Source: Rheinheimera sp. (GTDB lineage: Bacteria > Pseudomonadota > Gammaproteobacteria > Enterobacterales > Alteromonadaceae). From it: a DNA stretch of 64,000 nt. Made by a program: the position numbers and the translations under genes. The notes beneath the pieces are model-generated. The model worked only from the letters and a program-made list of their open reading frames with translations, made no database searches and was not told where the DNA came from. Below are positions 1 through 11,257 of this stretch, piece after piece. The stretch spans positions 21,578 through 85,577 of the forward strand of contig SSFI01000009.1 in the NCBI GenBank assembly GCA_008015325.1. Direction: 5' to 3'. Position 1 is the stretch's first letter. The number at the start of each line of letters is the position of its first letter.

Positions 1-179
1 GGTCGAATTGCTCAAAGATGAACCGTTAACTGACCGGGCCACGCTGAAACAACAGGTATTTGAATATATTGAAGTTGATTACAACAAAACCAGACGGCAT
101 AGTGCTATTGGCTATCTCAGCCCAGAAAACTATGAGCTAAAGAAAACTGCTTAGTGGCGTGTCCAGTGTTGGCGGATCA
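1..179 (+). mobile_element. Right end of an IS3-family insertion sequence: C-terminus of the DDE transposase (frame at 2..154, ...YNKTRRHSAIGYLSPENYELKKTA*) plus terminal sequence TGGCGTGTCCAGTGTTGGCGGATCA
   Basis: Translated tail matches the IS3 orfB C-terminal motif (DYNKTRRHSAIGYLSPxxYE). The next ~25 bp ends ...GGATCA, i.e. TGATCC... on the other strand, as expected for an IS3 terminus. Confidence 0.85.
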
Positions 180-773
180 GATCAGGGTGCTGTACTCGTT
201 TTGAGAATAGGCTGGAGTCGACTTGCCTCCACTCGAAAAGGAAGGTACGTCTCGCAGCCATTGTTCATCGTAAACCCTAGCACGCATTAACATGGTTGTT
301 ATACAAACTTTTAATATCGCCGCGGTATTTTCTTTGATGCCAATGTCTTCTTCATGAGCATAGAGGTAGAGAAAGGCCAGCGGCTTTTTGGCAAGCGCTA
401 TACGTCTATGTAGCTCACCGTTCTGCCCAACGTAACTTAGGAAACCTTCTTTTGAAAAGGGATCGATGCTGCTATTCTCACAATAACGGCAATATTTTTG
501 AAACGTTAGATACATATTATATTCTGCATCCACCGAGGCACTATCCTTTAGTCGCTCACTTAATGCTCTCGCAAGGCGGATAACATACTTTCGACGCTGC
601 TCACTATCATTCAGTAATGGCGAAAAATCAAACACAACAACCGTTTTGCTTGCGATGGTGGCCTTTTGCTTTAGCAAACCAATATCAATGACTTTCCGTC
701 CCCTTGGGACAATCGAATTATCCTTTAAAACATCTGGATTTAATGGGCTTTTTCGAAGTCCTGCCATCCTCAC
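177..773 (-). pseudogene. Second integrase / site-specific recombinase gene, 3'-truncated by the IS3 element; only the N-terminal (core-binding-like) part remains (GmtZ-like is a possibility)
   Basis: Coding-like 198-aa N-terminal segment 13 bp downstream of the tyrosine recombinase gene on the same strand. Its stop codon (TGA, 177-179) is the terminal TGA of the IS end. Confidence 0.6.
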
Positions 774-785
774 ATTCCTTGATTT

Positions 786-2300
786 TCAATTCTTATTCAG
801 GGCGCGTTGTGCTTCTTTATTTTTCCTGGATGCGTACATCAACCTAGCGACACGGTCGTTCATGTAATTGATGTACTTCTGGGTCGTACTGGTATCTGCA
901 TGCCCCATGAGATCTGCCAACTCGCTGAGGAGCAAATCAAAGACCATCTGTCTACGAGTCGCTTCTCTCTTGAGCCAATGTGTAGCGAATGTGGAACGCA
1001 AATCTTGCATTCGGTAGTACCACTGTGGATGTGTCTCTTGGATATGTGAGCGAATGGTGCTCAGTTTCTTTTGCAGGCTTTTATCAGAGTACGGTAATCC
1101 GCTTGCATTGACGAATAGATACTGTACATCCTGACTCTGGTGCAGGCTTTCTTCAAACCTCTCAGTTTCAAATGAGTCCTCTGTTCCGCCATTGATGTAA
1201 TGAACTTTTAATCTTGCTCGTATGTCCTTTTCATGCTGCTTTTTAAGATTCTTGACTCGCTTCGTTAACAGTTTTTTTCTCTGCTCGCTATGCAGGTACT
1301 CATTAAGCTCAAGCAACAATTCATACGGAATAGATATATTGCGTTGCTTGTCAAACTTGGTGCGACATCCGTTAAGTGGTCCAATCCTAAAAGGAATACT
1401 TTCAGCATCGCTCGTCGGATGGTGAATGCCGATAGCAGGGAACGTTACAAGCTCTTTCACACGCAATCCCGTTTCTACAGCTAAACGATACATTAGAGAA
1501 TACGTTTTATTTTGCCCTCGACGTGGCCACGACTTAATGTGGTCAAGGAAGATGTCCTTATGATTTTCAATCATTGGTTTTAGTAATTGGTGAGGCTGAC
1601 TGCTCTGAACTTTAGGAAAGCGTTTTTTTAGGTCAGTTGTCTGTACGTAAATAACCTTGTTTCTTATTTTTGTGTGAGCAAGTATGTCGTGCTGATTTAT
1701 TTTCTCAGATTTACGTACTGTGACTTCTTCAATTGCGAAAGGTTTTCGGTCTCGTGTAATAAAGAAAAGTCCGCTTCTGTGGAGCCACTTATAAAAACTT
1801 ATTACTACATCTGTATATGTCATAGCTGTCGATAAACTATAACCGCTCGGATTCTTCAATACCTGTCCCGTTGCCGGGCAAATCTGCTTTATATTATCAA
1901 GTAAGTAATCTACGTATAGCCAAACAATACCCTCTTTTGGATCGCTAGTAAGAGACTGGTAGCTTTTGGGTTGCCCATTATGATTTTTGTTATATGCAGA
2001 AATGAAGTTCTGAAATGACAACAAAGCATTTGCTTCGGGTGATGTGCTTTTAGCACCTTCTTTAAGTCGATAGTGAAGATATTGATTGTGTGGTTCGAGC
2101 GGTAATCCGTTAGGCTGGACAATAATAGAAAGCTCACTCGGCTCAGAATTGCTTTTTTTTATGGCTAGTTCAACCTCGCCAGTCTCTGAGTTGGTTGACA
2201 TACTCAAATCTGGTTCAGCTAGTAATCTTATTCTTTTTACTTGGAAACCATCTTTCTTCATAAGACTGAATTCTTTCTTACTGAAAGTTGATTTAAGCAT
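786..2300 (-). CDS. Tyrosine recombinase / phage-type integrase (possible GmtY-like)
   Basis: C-terminal catalytic motifs: ETGLRVKELVTF (R), QDLRSTFATHW (R..H), LADLMGHADTSTTQKYINYM (GH...Y). Confidence 0.88.
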   Translation of the reverse strand: MLKSTFSKKEFSLMKKDGFQVKRIRLLAEPDLSMSTNSETGEVELAIKKSNSEPSELSIIVQPNGLPLEPHNQYLHYRLKEGAKSTSPEANALLSFQNFISAYNKNHNGQPKSYQSLTSDPKEGIVWLYVDYLLDNIKQICPATGQVLKNPSGYSLSTAMTYTDVVISFYKWLHRSGLFFITRDRKPFAIEEVTVRKSEKINQHDILAHTKIRNKVIYVQTTDLKKRFPKVQSSQPHQLLKPMIENHKDIFLDHIKSWPRRGQNKTYSLMYRLAVETGLRVKELVTFPAIGIHHPTSDAESIPFRIGPLNGCRTKFDKQRNISIPYELLLELNEYLHSEQRKKLLTKRVKNLKKQHEKDIRARLKVHYINGGTEDSFETERFEESLHQSQDVQYLFVNASGLPYSDKSLQKKLSTIRSHIQETHPQWYYRMQDLRSTFATHWLKREATRRQMVFDLLLSELADLMGHADTSTTQKYINYMNDRVARLMYASRKNKEAQRALNKN

Positions 2301-2357
2301 TAGTCATTTTTTTGATTTCGTCAAGCGCCAACTTTAGAAGTCATAAAAAAGAGCCAA

Positions 2358-2777
2358 CTATAACTTACCTTCGACCAGCTCTTTCAGCTCGGCCGGATTC
2401 ATCGTTTTTAAACCCAGCGTCTGCGCGGCATTGCCGATGGATTCGACAGTGGGTTTGACCCGTACGTAAAATTCCGCCATCACGTCGACCCGCATCCGGT
2501 CACGGGTGATCAGCGCCTGTTCGGCGGCACGGCGCACTTCAAGACGCAGCGTATTCATATTAACCGGAATAATTTCGTGCAGTACCGGCAGCACAATAGC
2601 GCCACCATTCATAATGACTTTTTCCCCACGAAAACCGGTGCGGACAAAAGATACTTCTTTGGTGGCACGTTTATACAGCCGGGCCAAAATCAAACCCAGC
2701 ACCAGCAAGGCGCCTAATAACACCGCAACCAGGGTCAATACATCGACAGAGACCGTTACCGGCGTCACTTCATTCAT
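2358..2777 (-). pseudogene. Flotillin (YqiK-like) gene truncated after 139 aa
   Basis: N-terminal TM plus SPFH start (VSFVRTGFRGEKVIMNGGAIVLPVLHEIIPVNMNTLRLEV...NPAELKELVEGK) stops abruptly at the island boundary. Full flotillins are over 400 aa. Confidence 0.85.
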
Positions 2778-3460
2778 GGTTTCACTTCCTTTTGCTCTGA
2801 GGGGGATAAAGATTCGGGCGCTTTACAGGCCAGATAACGGCCGTGGGCATAACTGAGTAACAACACGGCACTGCCCTGCTGCAATTCTGACTGGTCATCC
2901 GGTTCCACCCGGATATAGTGCAGGTAACCATGTTGGTCCATCACGCGGGCTTCGGCGCTGTAACCGCTGCGGGCATTGCCCAGGGTTAAAATCGCCACCC
3001 GGCCGAGCAGATCGTCCTGGCTGACTGCCGTCGTTTCATCTTTGGGCAACAAGCGCGCCAGCCAGCCGCCGGTCAGACGCAGCTGCGGCAAGGTCGCCGG
3101 CAGCACCAGCAACACAGCGAGCCAGCCCGGTAGTAAGACCTGACTCAGCTGAAAAATGCCCCACTGCAGCAGCAAACCGGTTAAACCAAAACAGCACAGC
3201 CACAGCACCAGCAGCATCAATACCGGTACTTCACCAAAGCGTAACCAGCTGAATAACCGTGCCAGGCTGCTGTCTTCATCGACGGCTACTTCGCTGTGTG
3301 GATTGAGATCAGGCTCCGGCAACACTTGCTCCAGCGCATCCGCCATGCTCTGGCCAAACAACAGTGCCAGCAGTTCCAGTGCGCCAATGCCGAACATCAG
3401 CACAAGCGCCACGCTGAACCATTGGGTTTGTGGTAACCAGAACAAACTCATTGCGGACAT
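2774..3460 (-). CDS. YqiJ-like OB-fold membrane protein, partner of flotillin
   Basis: 228 aa with TM segments and C-terminal OB-like region. Overlaps the flotillin start by 4 bp, as in yqiJ-yqiK operons. Confidence 0.75.
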   Translation of the reverse strand: MSAMSLFWLPQTQWFSVALVLMFGIGALELLALLFGQSMADALEQVLPEPDLNPHSEVAVDEDSSLARLFSWLRFGEVPVLMLLVLWLCCFGLTGLLLQWGIFQLSQVLLPGWLAVLLVLPATLPQLRLTGGWLARLLPKDETTAVSQDDLLGRVAILTLGNARSGYSAEARVMDQHGYLHYIRVEPDDQSELQQGSAVLLLSYAHGRYLACKAPESLSPSEQKEVKP

Positions 3461-4079: not shown

Positions 4080-5108
4080 ATGAAAATCACCACCACACAA
4101 TTACAGACAGCCGTGACACAAGGCATTCTGCAGCCAGGCCAGGACCTGCAGCTCTGGCAATTCCTGCAACAACAGCAACAGGGCGTAGCGCAATTCAAAG
4201 CCGCGCATTTGTTGTATTACTTCGGCGGTGTGCTGGCCATTGCCGCCATGTCGTTGTTTATGAGCTTAAGCCATGAATTTTATGGTGGTTCAGGCCTCGC
4301 TGCATTGGCATTTTTTTATGCGCTACTGGGCCTGATGCTGGCCGAGCAACAACGCCAGCGCCAGCAGCCATTGCTGACCGGCATCTTTGCAACTTTTGCC
4401 TTAGTGCAAACCCCTTTATTGGTATTTGGCCTGTTACTCGGTTATGGCCTGTGGGATAACCGCGACTACCAGCATTATCATCAATGGATTGACGCGCGCT
4501 GGCTCTGGATGGAACTGGCCACTTTGCTGACTTCTGCCGTAGCTTTGTATCGTTACCGCCTGCCGTTTTTAGTCATGCCTGTGGCGGTCACCCTCTGGTA
4601 CCTCGGCATGGACCTCGCCCCGCTGCTGTTGCAGGATTTAGACGCAGACTGGCAACAACGCAAATGGGTAGCCGTTGGCTGGGGCTTGCTGACGTTAGCT
4701 CTGGCGTTTTATGTCGATTTACGCAACCGCCGGCCGGCTGACTTTGCGTTTTGGTTGTACCTGTCTGGTTTGCTGAGTTTTTGGGGCGGCCTGACTGCGA
4801 TGGATTCAGACAGCGAACTGGGCAAAGCGATTTATGCCGCCATCAACATCGGCTTGTTATTGCTTGGTGTCGCACTGGTGCGACGGGTTTTCGCTGTGTT
4901 TGGCGGCCTCGGCGTACTGATTTATTTATGCCATTTGGCCTTTGATTTGTTTGAGGACAGCAACTGGTTCCCGCTGGTGCTGTGCGCCATTGGTTTTACG
5001 GTGATTTATGCGGGTATGTTATGGCAACGCCATGAAGCACGTTGGTCAGCAGCGTTGCAACAGTTGCTGCCGTTGCAGGTACAGCAGCTGGTGGCGCGGC
5101 GACGTTAA
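4080..5108 (+). CDS. Multi-pass membrane protein, DUF2157-like (ORF opens at 4026; ATG at 4080 preferred)
   Basis: Soluble N-terminus (TTTQLQTAVTQGILQPGQDLQLWQFL) followed by about 10 hydrophobic segments. Confidence 0.6.
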   Translation: MKITTTQLQTAVTQGILQPGQDLQLWQFLQQQQQGVAQFKAAHLLYYFGGVLAIAAMSLFMSLSHEFYGGSGLAALAFFYALLGLMLAEQQRQRQQPLLTGIFATFALVQTPLLVFGLLLGYGLWDNRDYQHYHQWIDARWLWMELATLLTSAVALYRYRLPFLVMPVAVTLWYLGMDLAPLLLQDLDADWQQRKWVAVGWGLLTLALAFYVDLRNRRPADFAFWLYLSGLLSFWGGLTAMDSDSELGKAIYAAINIGLLLLGVALVRRVFAVFGGLGVLIYLCHLAFDLFEDSNWFPLVLCAIGFTVIYAGMLWQRHEARWSAALQQLLPLQVQQLVARRR

Positions 5109-7071
5109 AACCCACTGGCCGCCGGGGCGCTGTCGACAGGAATTTCCAGTAATAACGCCACGCCCTGCAGCACCAGCAGTTCGTCCAACAACAACTGGCC
5201 ATCGGCGGCAACTGCGGCACGTAAAGACAACCAGATTTGTTGTTTCAGCAGCGGCGTGCTGTTAACCAAGGGCAGCAGCTGCAGACTGCCGAGTGGCTGC
5301 GATTGCGGTTGCGGCACAGACACCGGGTCCAGTCCCAACGCCTGCAGGCCAGCCTGCCAGCTGTGTTGCTGCGTACTCTCGTCAGTTGCTTGTTGACTGA
5401 CCCAATGCAGCAGCGGCAACAAGGCCGGCAACACTTGCGTCAACCGGCCGTGTCGCGCTTTGGTCTGCGCCGCTGGCTCGAATTCAGCGGCGATGACATG
5501 ATCAAGCCATAACCAGACCAGTGCTTCAAAAGTATCGCAATGGCCGTCAAGATCAATCAGGGCGCGGCATAGCTGCTGCAAGTGCGTAAATCTGCTCTGA
5601 CTCAGTTGCTTTAAAGTCGGTACCAGTTGCTGTAACAACGTCAGCCGCGTTAATGCCTGCAGCGGCTGCACCTGATCAAATAAGCGGTCGACCTCACTGA
5701 GTAAACCCGGCATGCCGAGGCCCTGCACCAGTTTCAGCTGGCGTGACAAATCCTGTTCACTCATCAGACAGCAACATAGCAGCGCCTGCGCCGGTAATTC
5801 GTGTTGGCTGGCGTGGCGCACTGCAGGGGGCAGGTTGTCGAATTCGGCCTGCAGCTGGCGACGCTGCACTGTAAGGTCTTGCGCCAGTAACGAATCCGGC
5901 GCGCCGGCCAATCTGGCTGCGGTCGCTCCGGCAGTTTGCGCACCAGCCTGAGCCGCCAGCAACGCCGCTTGCAACAGCGTCATGCGCTGCTCTAAAGGTT
6001 TTGATACCGGCGTTTCAGTGCTGTTTTCAGTGCGGGCGCCAGCCGGTGTGGCCGCTGTTGCTGCATCCGGCAGGCCGCCAATCCAATGCGGTTCTATCCG
6101 TTTAATCCGTTCAGTCAGCGGTGGATGGGTGGCAAACCAGCCGCCGATAAAGCCCATTTGCCAGCGCGACAGCGCGTCGGCAAAAAACAAATGGCTCATT
6201 TCACTGGCCTGCGGATGTTTGACCCGCCCGCCTTGTTGCAGCGCAGCGATACGTTTTAACGCGCCGCCAATGCCGGCAGGATTGCGGGTGAATTGCACAG
6301 CGCTGGCGTCGGCCAGAAATTCCCGCTGCCGGCTCACTGCCGCTTTAATCAGCTGACCGAATAACACGCCGATGTAGCCGATGATGATAAAACTAAGGCC
6401 AACCCCCAACACCACCAGAATGCCGCCATTGCGGTCACGGCCGCTACTGCGCACTTGCAGCAACTGCTGCCCGGCTTCACTGATAAATAAAATGCCATGC
6501 AACAGCGCCAGCAGGCGCAAATTCAGCCGCATGTCGCCGTTCAGAATATGGCTGAATTCATGCGCGATCACGCCTTGCAGTTCGTCGCGACTAAGCAGAT
6601 TTAACGTACCTTCAGTCACGCCAATCACCGCATCGGCCGGCGAAAAACCGGCGGCAAAAGCGTTGATACTCTGATCTGGCAGTACATACAGCGGCGGTGC
6701 GCGGCGATGGCCATTTCACTGACCACATTTTGCAGCACCCGCACTTTGGGGTCGGTTTCGTCGCTTTTCAGTCGCCGCCCACCCAGCGCTTCGGCCACCA
6801 CTTTTCCGCCTTTTTTCAGCTGCGCCAGCCGGAACAACACCACGATACCAATCACGCTGACCACTGCGGCGCTGGTCACCAGCAGATAACCCCAGGGCAG
6901 TTGCGGCGTGGTATTGGGGTCGACCTGATCAGCCTGTAAAAATGCCAGTGCAATCAGCACCACGATGTCAGTCAGCGCCACCAGCAGCAACACAGCCAGC
7001 GAGAATAACAACACCAGCAGCCGGGTGCGGCTGCGGGCTTGTTGCTGCGCTTCAAAGAAGTTCATCGCCAC
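5105..7071 (-). pseudogene. M48-family metalloprotease with C-terminal TerB-like region, disrupted by a frameshifting deletion near 6697-6706
   Basis: ORF 6625..7071 gives the N-terminus (MNFFEAQQQARSRTRLLVLLF...VVSEMAIAA). ORF 5105..6628 gives the catalytic part (DELQGVIAHEFSHILNGD). The alternate frame reads PPLYVLPDQSINAFAAGFSPADAVIGVTEGT continuously across the gap. Confidence 0.85.
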
Positions 7072-8076: not shown

Positions 8077-9333
8077 TCAATGGGAAATCGAAGATTGGTC
8101 CTGCGCTGCCAGCCGCGCGGCCGCAGGTTTAAATAAAGTGTTGAGCCACATCAGCAGACAAAGGGCCCCGGCAATGGAGGTTGCGAGGTAAAAGCCGTAA
8201 CGCACTTCGCCAAAAAAGTCGCCGACAATGCCCATCAATAAAGGACCAACCGCAGCAGCAAGCGCAGTAAACGCCAGCAACAAACCAGCGACAGCGCCAT
8301 GCTGGGCGCGTGGGAAACAGCTGATGCCTTTGGAATTAATGGTCGGATACATCATCGACATAAACAGGCCGGACAACGGCATCAGCCAGACCGCAATATC
8401 CACCCCGCCCACCATACTGGCGACATAACACAGCAAAATTGCCGTGCTGAACAGCGCCAGCACCAGGCTCCACTCCAGCTTGCTTAAAATCCACTCGGCG
8501 AGAAAACGCCCCACAGTGCGCAAGACAAAAAAGATCGTGATGGCATGCAGCGCCAGGTATTGATATTCGCCCTGATAACTTTGCAGCAAGGTCGGCAACC
8601 AGACAAACACCGCCACTTCCACCGCGACATAACAGGCAATAGCCAGCGAAAAGCCGAGCGCATAAGGGTCGCGTACCAGCTTCAGGCTTTGCCATAAGTC
8701 TGCATCCTTAGCTGCCGGTTCATAATCCGGATATTGCAGCATCGCCGCCAAGGCCAGTAACAAACCACAAATCAGCCCGGCCAGCAGATACAGCTGAGTC
8801 CAGTCCAGGTCGTAGCTGATTAATAAGGTGACCAGTAACGGGCCGGCGATGGCGCCTAAGCCAAAAAAACCTTCGACGCGGTTCATCAGCCGGGTGTGCT
8901 GCTGATTGTCCGGACTGATATCACCAATCAGCGCCAGCGCACCGGTTTTAAATAGACCAATCGCCAGGCCTGACACGCCTAATAAACCTAAATAAAACAA
9001 GAACGTATCGCCAAAAGCAAAAGCAATACAGGCCAGGGTATAAATCGCCAGACCCGCCATAATCACCGTCTTGCGGCCAATCGAATCGGCCAGCCGGCCG
9101 AGCAATAACCCTGACAGGCCAATCAAGACCATCGGCACATAATGGAAAGCGGCGGCTTCAGTCAGGCTTAAATTAAACTGCTGTACCACTTTGGGGATGA
9201 TGACGCCGACGGCATCTGTGGTCATGGCAAAAACAAAAAACATCAGGCAAGTCATCCACTTGACCTGACTCAGTTGCCGTTGTCGCGCTTGTTGCGCTGT
9301 GGCTCCTAACTGCATGGTATCGGTTTTGATCAT
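8077..9333 (-). CDS. MFS transporter (ORF extends to 9381; MIKTDTMQLG start preferred)
   Basis: About 12 hydrophobic segments; LLLGRLADSIGRKTVIMAGLAIY is an MFS loop motif. Confidence 0.9.
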   Translation of the reverse strand: MIKTDTMQLGATAQQARQRQLSQVKWMTCLMFFVFAMTTDAVGVIIPKVVQQFNLSLTEAAAFHYVPMVLIGLSGLLLGRLADSIGRKTVIMAGLAIYTLACIAFAFGDTFLFYLGLLGVSGLAIGLFKTGALALIGDISPDNQQHTRLMNRVEGFFGLGAIAGPLLVTLLISYDLDWTQLYLLAGLICGLLLALAAMLQYPDYEPAAKDADLWQSLKLVRDPYALGFSLAIACYVAVEVAVFVWLPTLLQSYQGEYQYLALHAITIFFVLRTVGRFLAEWILSKLEWSLVLALFSTAILLCYVASMVGGVDIAVWLMPLSGLFMSMMYPTINSKGISCFPRAQHGAVAGLLLAFTALAAAVGPLLMGIVGDFFGEVRYGFYLATSIAGALCLLMWLNTLFKPAAARLAAQDQSSISH

Positions 9334-9659
9334 GGCTGCCTCATCCGTTCGCGTGGCGACAACCGGAGTTCTGCAGTCCAACTAAGCTCTGTTGCAGGCA
9401 TTCCGGAGAATTGTGCGGGCGTTTTACCCACACTGCTGCCAAGGTATACATCTTAAACGTTTAAGAATCAATAATACCAAAGTAGAAAAGTGAAATTTTT
9501 TTGCCTATCTACTTTCAGCTGTCGAACGGGCATGCTGTGTGGCCAGACAAAAACTACCTCATAGTGACGGCCTCTAACACTTTCGTCGTGTTTTGCCTGA
9601 GTGTCAGTCAGTGGCATAGTAACCTTCTGGCGTAAACTGCAAAGACACCGGAGCATCCC

Positions 9660-10205
9660 ATGTTATTAACCGCTGACCAGAGCCTGTTACTGCTGATTGA
9701 TCTGCAAAAAAAATTAGCGCCCGCTATTCACAACAACGCTGAAGTGGAACAACACTGTCGCTGGCTGGTGGAAGTTGCGCGTGAACTGGCAGTGCCGATA
9801 TTGGCAACTGAACAATATCCACAAGGCCTTGGCGTCACCCTGCCGTCACTGCTCAGCTTATTAAAAAGCGAAGAAATTCTGGAAAAAATCCATTTCAGTG
9901 CGTACCGGGAGCCACATCTTCAGGCGGCACTGGCCGATTCCGGTCGCCGTCAAATCGTGCTGTGCGGCACTGAAGCCCATGTCTGTGTACTGCAAACGGC
10001 GCTGGATTTAATCAGCGCCGGTTATCAGGTATTTGTGGTGGCCGAAGCCTGTGGCTCACGTCGTGACAGCGACAAACAGCTGGCGCTTAGACGCTTACAG
10101 CAGGCCGGCGCTGTGATTGTCAGCCGCGAAATGGTGGCGTTTGAATGGTTACAACAAGCCGGCACCGCGCAGTTTCGTCACGTCAGCAAAGGCTGGCTGC
10201 GCTGA
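9660..10205 (+). CDS. Isochorismatase-family hydrolase
   Basis: LLLIDLQKKL (D), K residue in EKIHFSAY, LCGTEAHVCVLQTALDL (C). Confidence 0.92.
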   Translation: MLLTADQSLLLLIDLQKKLAPAIHNNAEVEQHCRWLVEVARELAVPILATEQYPQGLGVTLPSLLSLLKSEEILEKIHFSAYREPHLQAALADSGRRQIVLCGTEAHVCVLQTALDLISAGYQVFVVAEACGSRRDSDKQLALRRLQQAGAVIVSREMVAFEWLQQAGTAQFRHVSKGWLR

Positions 10206-10216
10206 TTTGCTCCGGT

Positions 10217-11257
10217 TCAGGCCTGGTGCGGCAGGCTACTCTCGCCGGCGCGGACTTCATAAGGCAATAAAATCCGCCCTTCTTCGCCGCGGATAAAGGC
10301 TTCCACCGCCGCAATGCCTTTTTGGTCGCTGTGCTGCCAGACGGAGCTCAGCGTCGGGTGATAACGCTGACCTTCTTCGATACCGTCAAAACCAATCACC
10401 TGCACATCGTCCGGGATGCGCAGGCCGGCTTGCAGCACTTCGCGCATCGCGCTTAATGCAATCAAATCACTCATACAGAGCAGTGTATTTGGTCTTGGTG
10501 TCAACGCCAGCGCAGCGCGTGCGGCCAGAGCAGCTTGTTGTTGATTACTTTCCGGAATGTGCCAGATACGCTCTGGCGCCAGCGTCTGCCCCACTTCCTT
10601 TAATGCGCGTTGGTAACCATCCAGCCGGCGGTGTGCAATCGAACTTTGATTATCCCAAAGCGGGCTGTCCCCCACCGGGCGGGTGTCAGCGGCGTCAATC
10701 AGCCGCAAGCCCAACACGGCCACGCTGGAGTCTTTGCTAAGCACCTGAAGGGCGATTTCATAGGCGGCCTGTTCGTTATCAATATTGACCGAGGGCCGGT
10801 CGGTTAAATCGCAGTCGACTGTCAGCACGCGTTTGCGGGTTTTCTCCAGCTGCGAAATTAAATCGGTGTTGCGCGGTGCGCCGTAGCAAATAAAGCCGTC
10901 GACAAAATCGACAATGGCATCAAGGCTCGGTGCACTGCCGGAAAATAACAACAGGTGGCGTTTGTGCTGTTCCAGCGCATTGGCCACGCCACGGATAAAC
11001 TGGCTGGCGACCGGGTCACTAACCATATATTCCAGCGAGTCGGACAAAATCACCGCAATAATGCCGGAACTGCCTTTACGCAACGACTGTGCCGCTTTGT
11101 TCGGGCCCTGATAGCCCAGTTCAGCACAGGCACTGAGGATTTTTTCCCGCAGTTGTGCAGATAGTTGATCCGGCCGGCTGAAGGCGTTTGAAATCGTGGC
11201 CGTCGATACGCCAAGTTGTTGGGCGACGGTTTTTAACGTTTGCGTTGGTTTGGCCAT
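10217..11257 (-). CDS. LacI-family transcriptional regulator
   Basis: N-terminal HTH LKTVAQQLGVSTATISNAFSRPDQLS; C-terminal periplasmic-binding-like domain. Confidence 0.95.
   Translation of the reverse strand: MAKPTQTLKTVAQQLGVSTATISNAFSRPDQLSAQLREKILSACAELGYQGPNKAAQSLRKGSSGIIAVILSDSLEYMVSDPVASQFIRGVANALEQHKRHLLLFSGSAPSLDAIVDFVDGFICYGAPRNTDLISQLEKTRKRVLTVDCDLTDRPSVNIDNEQAAYEIALQVLSKDSSVAVLGLRLIDAADTRPVGDSPLWDNQSSIAHRRLDGYQRALKEVGQTLAPERIWHIPESNQQQAALAARAALALTPRPNTLLCMSDLIALSAMREVLQAGLRIPDDVQVIGFDGIEEGQRYHPTLSSVWQHSDQKGIAAVEAFIRGEEGRILLPYEVRAGESSLPHQA

Follow-up and report, generated by a model that had tools for sequence, protein, structure and literature searches.

Reading leftwards from position 2777 of the window (the whole stretch analysed; 64,000 nucleotides of a Rheinheimera sp. 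assembly, C15:21578–85577), we encounter the 5′ part of a flotillin gene, broken off after 138 codons (2363–2777, minus strand); a complete tyrosine recombinase gene, which we call intA (786–2300, minus strand); and, directly downstream on the same strand, the beginning of a second gene, tfp (185–773, minus strand; residues about 1–196), that runs into the right end of an insertion sequence of the IS3 family (1–184, plus strand). The names are those of SEs (strand-biased circularizing integrative elements), to which the sequence comparisons described below connect both genes.

The recombinase gene and its interrupted neighbour

The product of intA (504 amino acids) matches the Pfam Phage_integrase model at 9e-9, with models for XerA/C/D matching below cut-off only; the full tyrosine recombinase gene that the first-pass annotation had placed at the chromosomal junction is thus confirmed. 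The IntA of SE-6283, the first described SE (PMC10214605), finds this frame at about 33% identity (2e-64; tblastn), whilst that of an SE in Colwellia sp. MB3u-41 is 52% identical and pairs with the window protein in the IntA tree (support 95/95). No close IntA was found in the same-genus genomes searched. This IntA homologue occupies the left end of the element, and its catalytic residues read RQRHY, as against RHRHY in relatives; a glutamine (residue 432) stands at box II, in place of the histidine present in all IntA relatives compared—a comparison biased by the fact that many were fetched by patterns, one of which includes the box II histidine. The histidine is also present in the relatives fetched by homology alone.

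Beginning 12 bp beyond intA, on the same strand, the open reading frame at 177–773 (minus strand) spans 198 amino acids. As a complete small gene it is ruled out, its stop (177–179) falling inside insertion-sequence DNA; we read it instead as the start of a longer, interrupted gene, because positions 1–184 are the end of the IS3-family element (other copies in the genome share this end), and are followed by one copy of its target duplication (GGG, 185–187; identical to the GGG at L006:10517–10519). Scans of Pfam and NCBIfam returned no meaningful family match for the encoded protein. Direct comparison relates it to Tfp, at 27% identity to the protein of SE-6283 (1e-12) and 39% to that of the Colwellia SE (2e-36). 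The proposal of a second integrase-like gene at this position consequently survives in part: a 5′ gene fragment does follow on the same strand, 12 bp on, but it encodes a Tfp homologue, without an integrase catalytic domain.

The rest of this gene had been predicted to lie to the left of the window, and was found there, at 9196–10516 and 6353–6587 of L006 (contig C15). With SE-6283 Tfp as the tblastn query, residues 39–199 match within the window, 208–616 match L006:9213–10487 and 624–694 match L006:6350–6580, making three collinear pieces with identities of 27–34%; the corresponding values for Colwellia Tfp are 39%, 48% and 51%. Two insertion sequences part the pieces. The IS3-family element (1243 bp, L006:10520–11762; ends TGATCTGATCC...GGATCAGATCA) carries orfA and orfB, and is flanked on both sides by the 3-bp GGG duplication; between the last two pieces sits an IS21-family element of 2603 bp, with IS21-type istA/istB and a 5-bp target duplication, CTTTG. 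By base counting, the tfp frame is kept across both. Beyond about residue 713, in the numbering of Colwellia Tfp, the gene gives way to transposase sequence of IS256-like (mutator) type, an assignment that comes from reading the translation and is not a database match, and at this remnant the 3′ end of tfp is lost.

Element ends and the flotillin target

The junction with chromosomal DNA, also claimed by the first-pass annotation, holds. The flotillin gene whose first 138 codons occupy 2363–2777 is uninterrupted in five relatives (L011–L015), and its 3′ part lies on a second contig (G000:C109:23070 to about 24390; an 84% identity match). Comparing attL, attR and the uninterrupted genes, we read attL as GAAG-GTAAGT-TATAGTTGGC, attR (contig C109) as GCCAATTATA-TTGCGT-TTGTTGATGC, and the intact flotillin gene of relative L012 as GAAG-GTAAGT-TTGTCGATGC. 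The 6-bp spacer at attL (GTAAGT; 2363–2368, minus strand) accordingly equals the target's own sequence, whereas that at attR is different (TTGCGT).

The junctions fit four registers. With a 6-bp spacer, one of these sets the left end of the element, TATAGTTGGC (the outer part of motif C; 2353–2362, minus strand), against the right end on C109, TATAATTGGC, as an inverted repeat agreeing at 9/10 bases, the other registers giving 2–3/10; the probability of such a single-register repeat was estimated by simulation at about 1e-4. All three features published as defining an SE terminus are found here—a retained, split attB, imperfect inverted repeats and a 6-bp spacer—although the repeat is clear over 10 bp, and so shorter than the 13–19 bp published for SEs. 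The end motif occurs again, as TAAAGTTGGC, 26 bp inside the first copy (2327–2336, minus strand), and this spacing recurs in the left-end repeats of SE-6283, L050, L052 and L053; the pairs of repeats suggest recombinase binding sites.

From these junctions, flotillin appears to have been disrupted by the element. Counting against a single, demonstrated continuous insertion, its ends lie on separate contigs (left on C15, right on C109), with C109 ending about 670 bp beyond the flotillin junction. This last stretch (G000:C109:24390–25060; L049:4390–5061), which runs from the right end to where the contig stops, contains no obvious gene, and no continuation of it was found.

Since no flotillin gene was found beside the other SE loci fetched, it is not a shared SE target within that sample. 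Neither flotillin nor tellurite is mentioned in the main text of the SE publications consulted, and it is relative to this main text only that the flotillin site, together with the probable cargo described below, would be new.

Two further genes lie on the chromosomal side. Upstream of the split flotillin, 2774–3460 (minus strand) encodes a membrane protein that by eye resembles NfeD/YqiJ, the usual partner of flotillin. Further along, an M48-type peptidase gene (5105–7071, minus strand; by eye) is divided between two overlapping frames, 6625–7071 and 5105–6628, which suggests a frameshift, be it real or a sequencing error.

Missing core genes and probable cargo

An SE core has four genes, of which two are accounted for above. 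Searches of the assembly for IntB, using the SE-6283 or Colwellia protein or a seven-row profile, and for Srap, using a six-row profile, found neither; likewise, tblastn with the four SE-6283 proteins gave no IntB or Srap match in the SE region. Such absence has to be judged within the limits of an assembly fragmented into 139 contigs. Within those limits, intB and srap are likely to be truly missing from the genome, because Tfp, at about 30% identity, was found by the same route, and SE-6283 queries recover both Tfp and IntA at a comparable divergence. We consequently regard the element as a degenerate SE remnant and not a complete SE; with tfp broken, intB and srap missing, and glutamine in IntA at the position of the box II histidine, it is most likely unable to move by itself.

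Beyond the IS256-like remnant, further to the left, follows a Ter-type stress cluster (L005:398–15233 region of C15), comprising ATPgrasp_Ter, PRTase_2 with TRSP, a HAD-like phosphatase and StiP with PELOTA, and then C-C_Bond_Lyase, TerD, VWA proteins, TerY_C, PP2C and a kinase-like protein. In the sequence as assembled, these genes are found on the element's side of the flotillin break, and are therefore probably SE cargo, in keeping with the first-pass expectation that cargo would lie to the left of the window. The anti-phage character then predicted for that cargo finds no backing: PADLOC recognises no defence system among the ten cargo proteins scanned, giving weak kinase-domain matches only, on the kinase-like protein, and no match on the proteins of the recombinase module in the window.

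A different history for the Ter-type cluster deserves serious thought, namely that it never was SE cargo, and was moved beside the SE remnant by a rearrangement mediated by insertion sequences. In its favour, tfp breaks off in IS256-like sequence immediately ahead of the cluster, a gene for a DDE transposase is located at the edge of the contig, and copies of insertion sequences are found at many contig ends of this genome; with a transposase gene close to where the contig stops, acquisition by such a route has a substantial chance of being correct, albeit one that we place somewhat below even. Set against it is the position of the cluster, in the assembled sequence, on that side of the split flotillin where SE cargo would be expected.

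A decayed SE among related elements

Taken together, the data leave us highly confident that the locus is the left end of a decayed SE in a flotillin gene. In support of this are the homology of both IntA and Tfp in SE gene order, a closest relative having all four core genes intact in that same order, and a split flotillin gene for which we have both junctions, the 6-bp footprint and the 9/10 inverted repeat; counting against it is the absence of IntB and Srap, 2/4 of the core genes. An alignment search of bacterial genomes gave 35 related loci, the closest being that of Colwellia sp. MB3u-41 (L056, NZ_JACGUT010000078.1)—an intact and apparently undescribed SE arranged intA-tfp-intB-srap—and most of the others have this gene order too; pSEA1, the Vibrio 04Ya108 plasmid that carries SE-6283, was reached through a protein search of plasmids.

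Several of these loci merit a description of their own. On IncC plasmid pP10159-5 (L009; NZ_MF072965.1, 7001–13064), a complete four-gene SE-like core adjoins blaTEM-1 on a conjugative plasmid, and near-identical IntA matches to it occur on plasmids of E. coli, Klebsiella, Enterobacter and Salmonella. In Shewanella aestuarii pPN3F2_1 (L008), an IntA relative is followed by what is left of tfp (its start only) and then by sul2, mef(C), mph(G) and ISVsa3; apparently another SE core truncated beside resistance genes. Vibrio sp. UCD-FRSSP16_30 (L064) retains intA and srap, but between them only short remains of tfp (57 aa) and of intB (178 aa), pointing to an apparent internal deletion.

In the published model of an intact SE, IntA and IntB carry out a single-strand exchange between attL and attR with the aid of Tfp and Srap, and a circle is copied out that includes the 6 bp adjoining motif C; on entering a specific short site, this circle leaves attL with the target's 6 bp and attR with those of the donor (PMC10214605, PMC9345347). 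Here, the split gene, its two ends and the 6-bp footprint record the integration of an SE at codon 138–139 of flotillin, after which the IS3-family and IS21-family elements entered tfp. The final part of tfp was replaced by an IS256-like remnant, both intB and srap were lost, and IntA came to carry glutamine in place of the box II histidine.

Island types other than an SE share parts of this layout. The first-pass annotation had seen here the edge of a mobile island, possibly a Gamma-Mobile-Trio island, in which GmtY lies at the edge with GmtZ behind it and the cargo consists of defence genes and effectors; the edge itself stands, with its recombinase module, the related gene that follows and the probable cargo beyond the left border of the window, but the likeness to Gamma-Mobile-Trio islands does not. 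Such islands do resemble our element in having a recombinase gene at their edge, with a related gene next to it in the same orientation, and in their gammaproteobacterial hosts. Searched with the GmtY model (NCBIfam NF040693.1, recomb_GmtY; 441 positions, cut-off 340 bits), neither window protein gives a match at E<=1, and a search of the whole genome brings up nothing beyond a 323-aa frame scoring 22 bits against the cut-off of 340; the second gene, for which the NCBIfam scan finds no Gmt family, is a different one (tfp), and the scanned cargo has no defence system recognised by PADLOC. On the GmtY model search and the NCBIfam scans we reject the Gamma-Mobile-Trio reading, leaving it with practically no probability, and with no evidence for either such an island or a defence island, the locus should not be carried forward as one.

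Nearer in overall design is the GInt, a ginABCD island with three integrases, whose four-gene recombination operon likewise lies at one end, followed by cargo, between attachment ends (PMC5385486). The window IntA and Tfp match and group with the SE proteins, whilst BLASTP mostly detects no match between Tfp and GinC, and the proteins of SEs cluster apart from those of GInts (PMC10214605); given this published separation, we consider a GInt very improbable. A Tn554-like or RIT-type recombinase set would also account for recombinase-type genes in tandem, and a 6-bp footprint has been reported for relatives of Tn554 as well. Against this, the gene behind intA is homologous to Tfp and falls in a size class near 800 aa, whereas by the published descriptions Tn554 has no Tfp counterpart, and RIT recombinases span 315–410 aa and all possess the catalytic tyrosine (PMC10214605); we give this explanation next to no weight.

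Returning to the decayed SE, we tentatively propose something more specific, with rather less than even confidence: that it belongs to a divergent SE lineage, so far shared with Colwellia alone, which targeted flotillin and whose Ter-type cargo may have become fixed in the chromosome through decay of the recombination genes. The element adds both an insertion site, flotillin, and a divergent lineage to those of the SEs. The locus also offers an example of how an SE decays, and one in which both termini could be identified despite a dead element and a broken assembly.

Set beside SE-6283 (Vibrio alfacsensis 04Ya108, pSEA1, L007), which is intact and demonstrated active (PMC10214605), the window element has the same intA-tfp order and obeys the same 6-bp footprint rule; SE-6283, in contrast, has bcp as its target and a core without insertion sequences, where ours has flotillin as its target and insertion sequences within tfp. 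With the SE of Colwellia sp. MB3u-41 it shares gene order and a sister IntA. That element retains its four core genes intact, as well as the box II histidine, both of which the window element lacks, and interrupts a gene for a MoxR-like AAA ATPase rather than flotillin.
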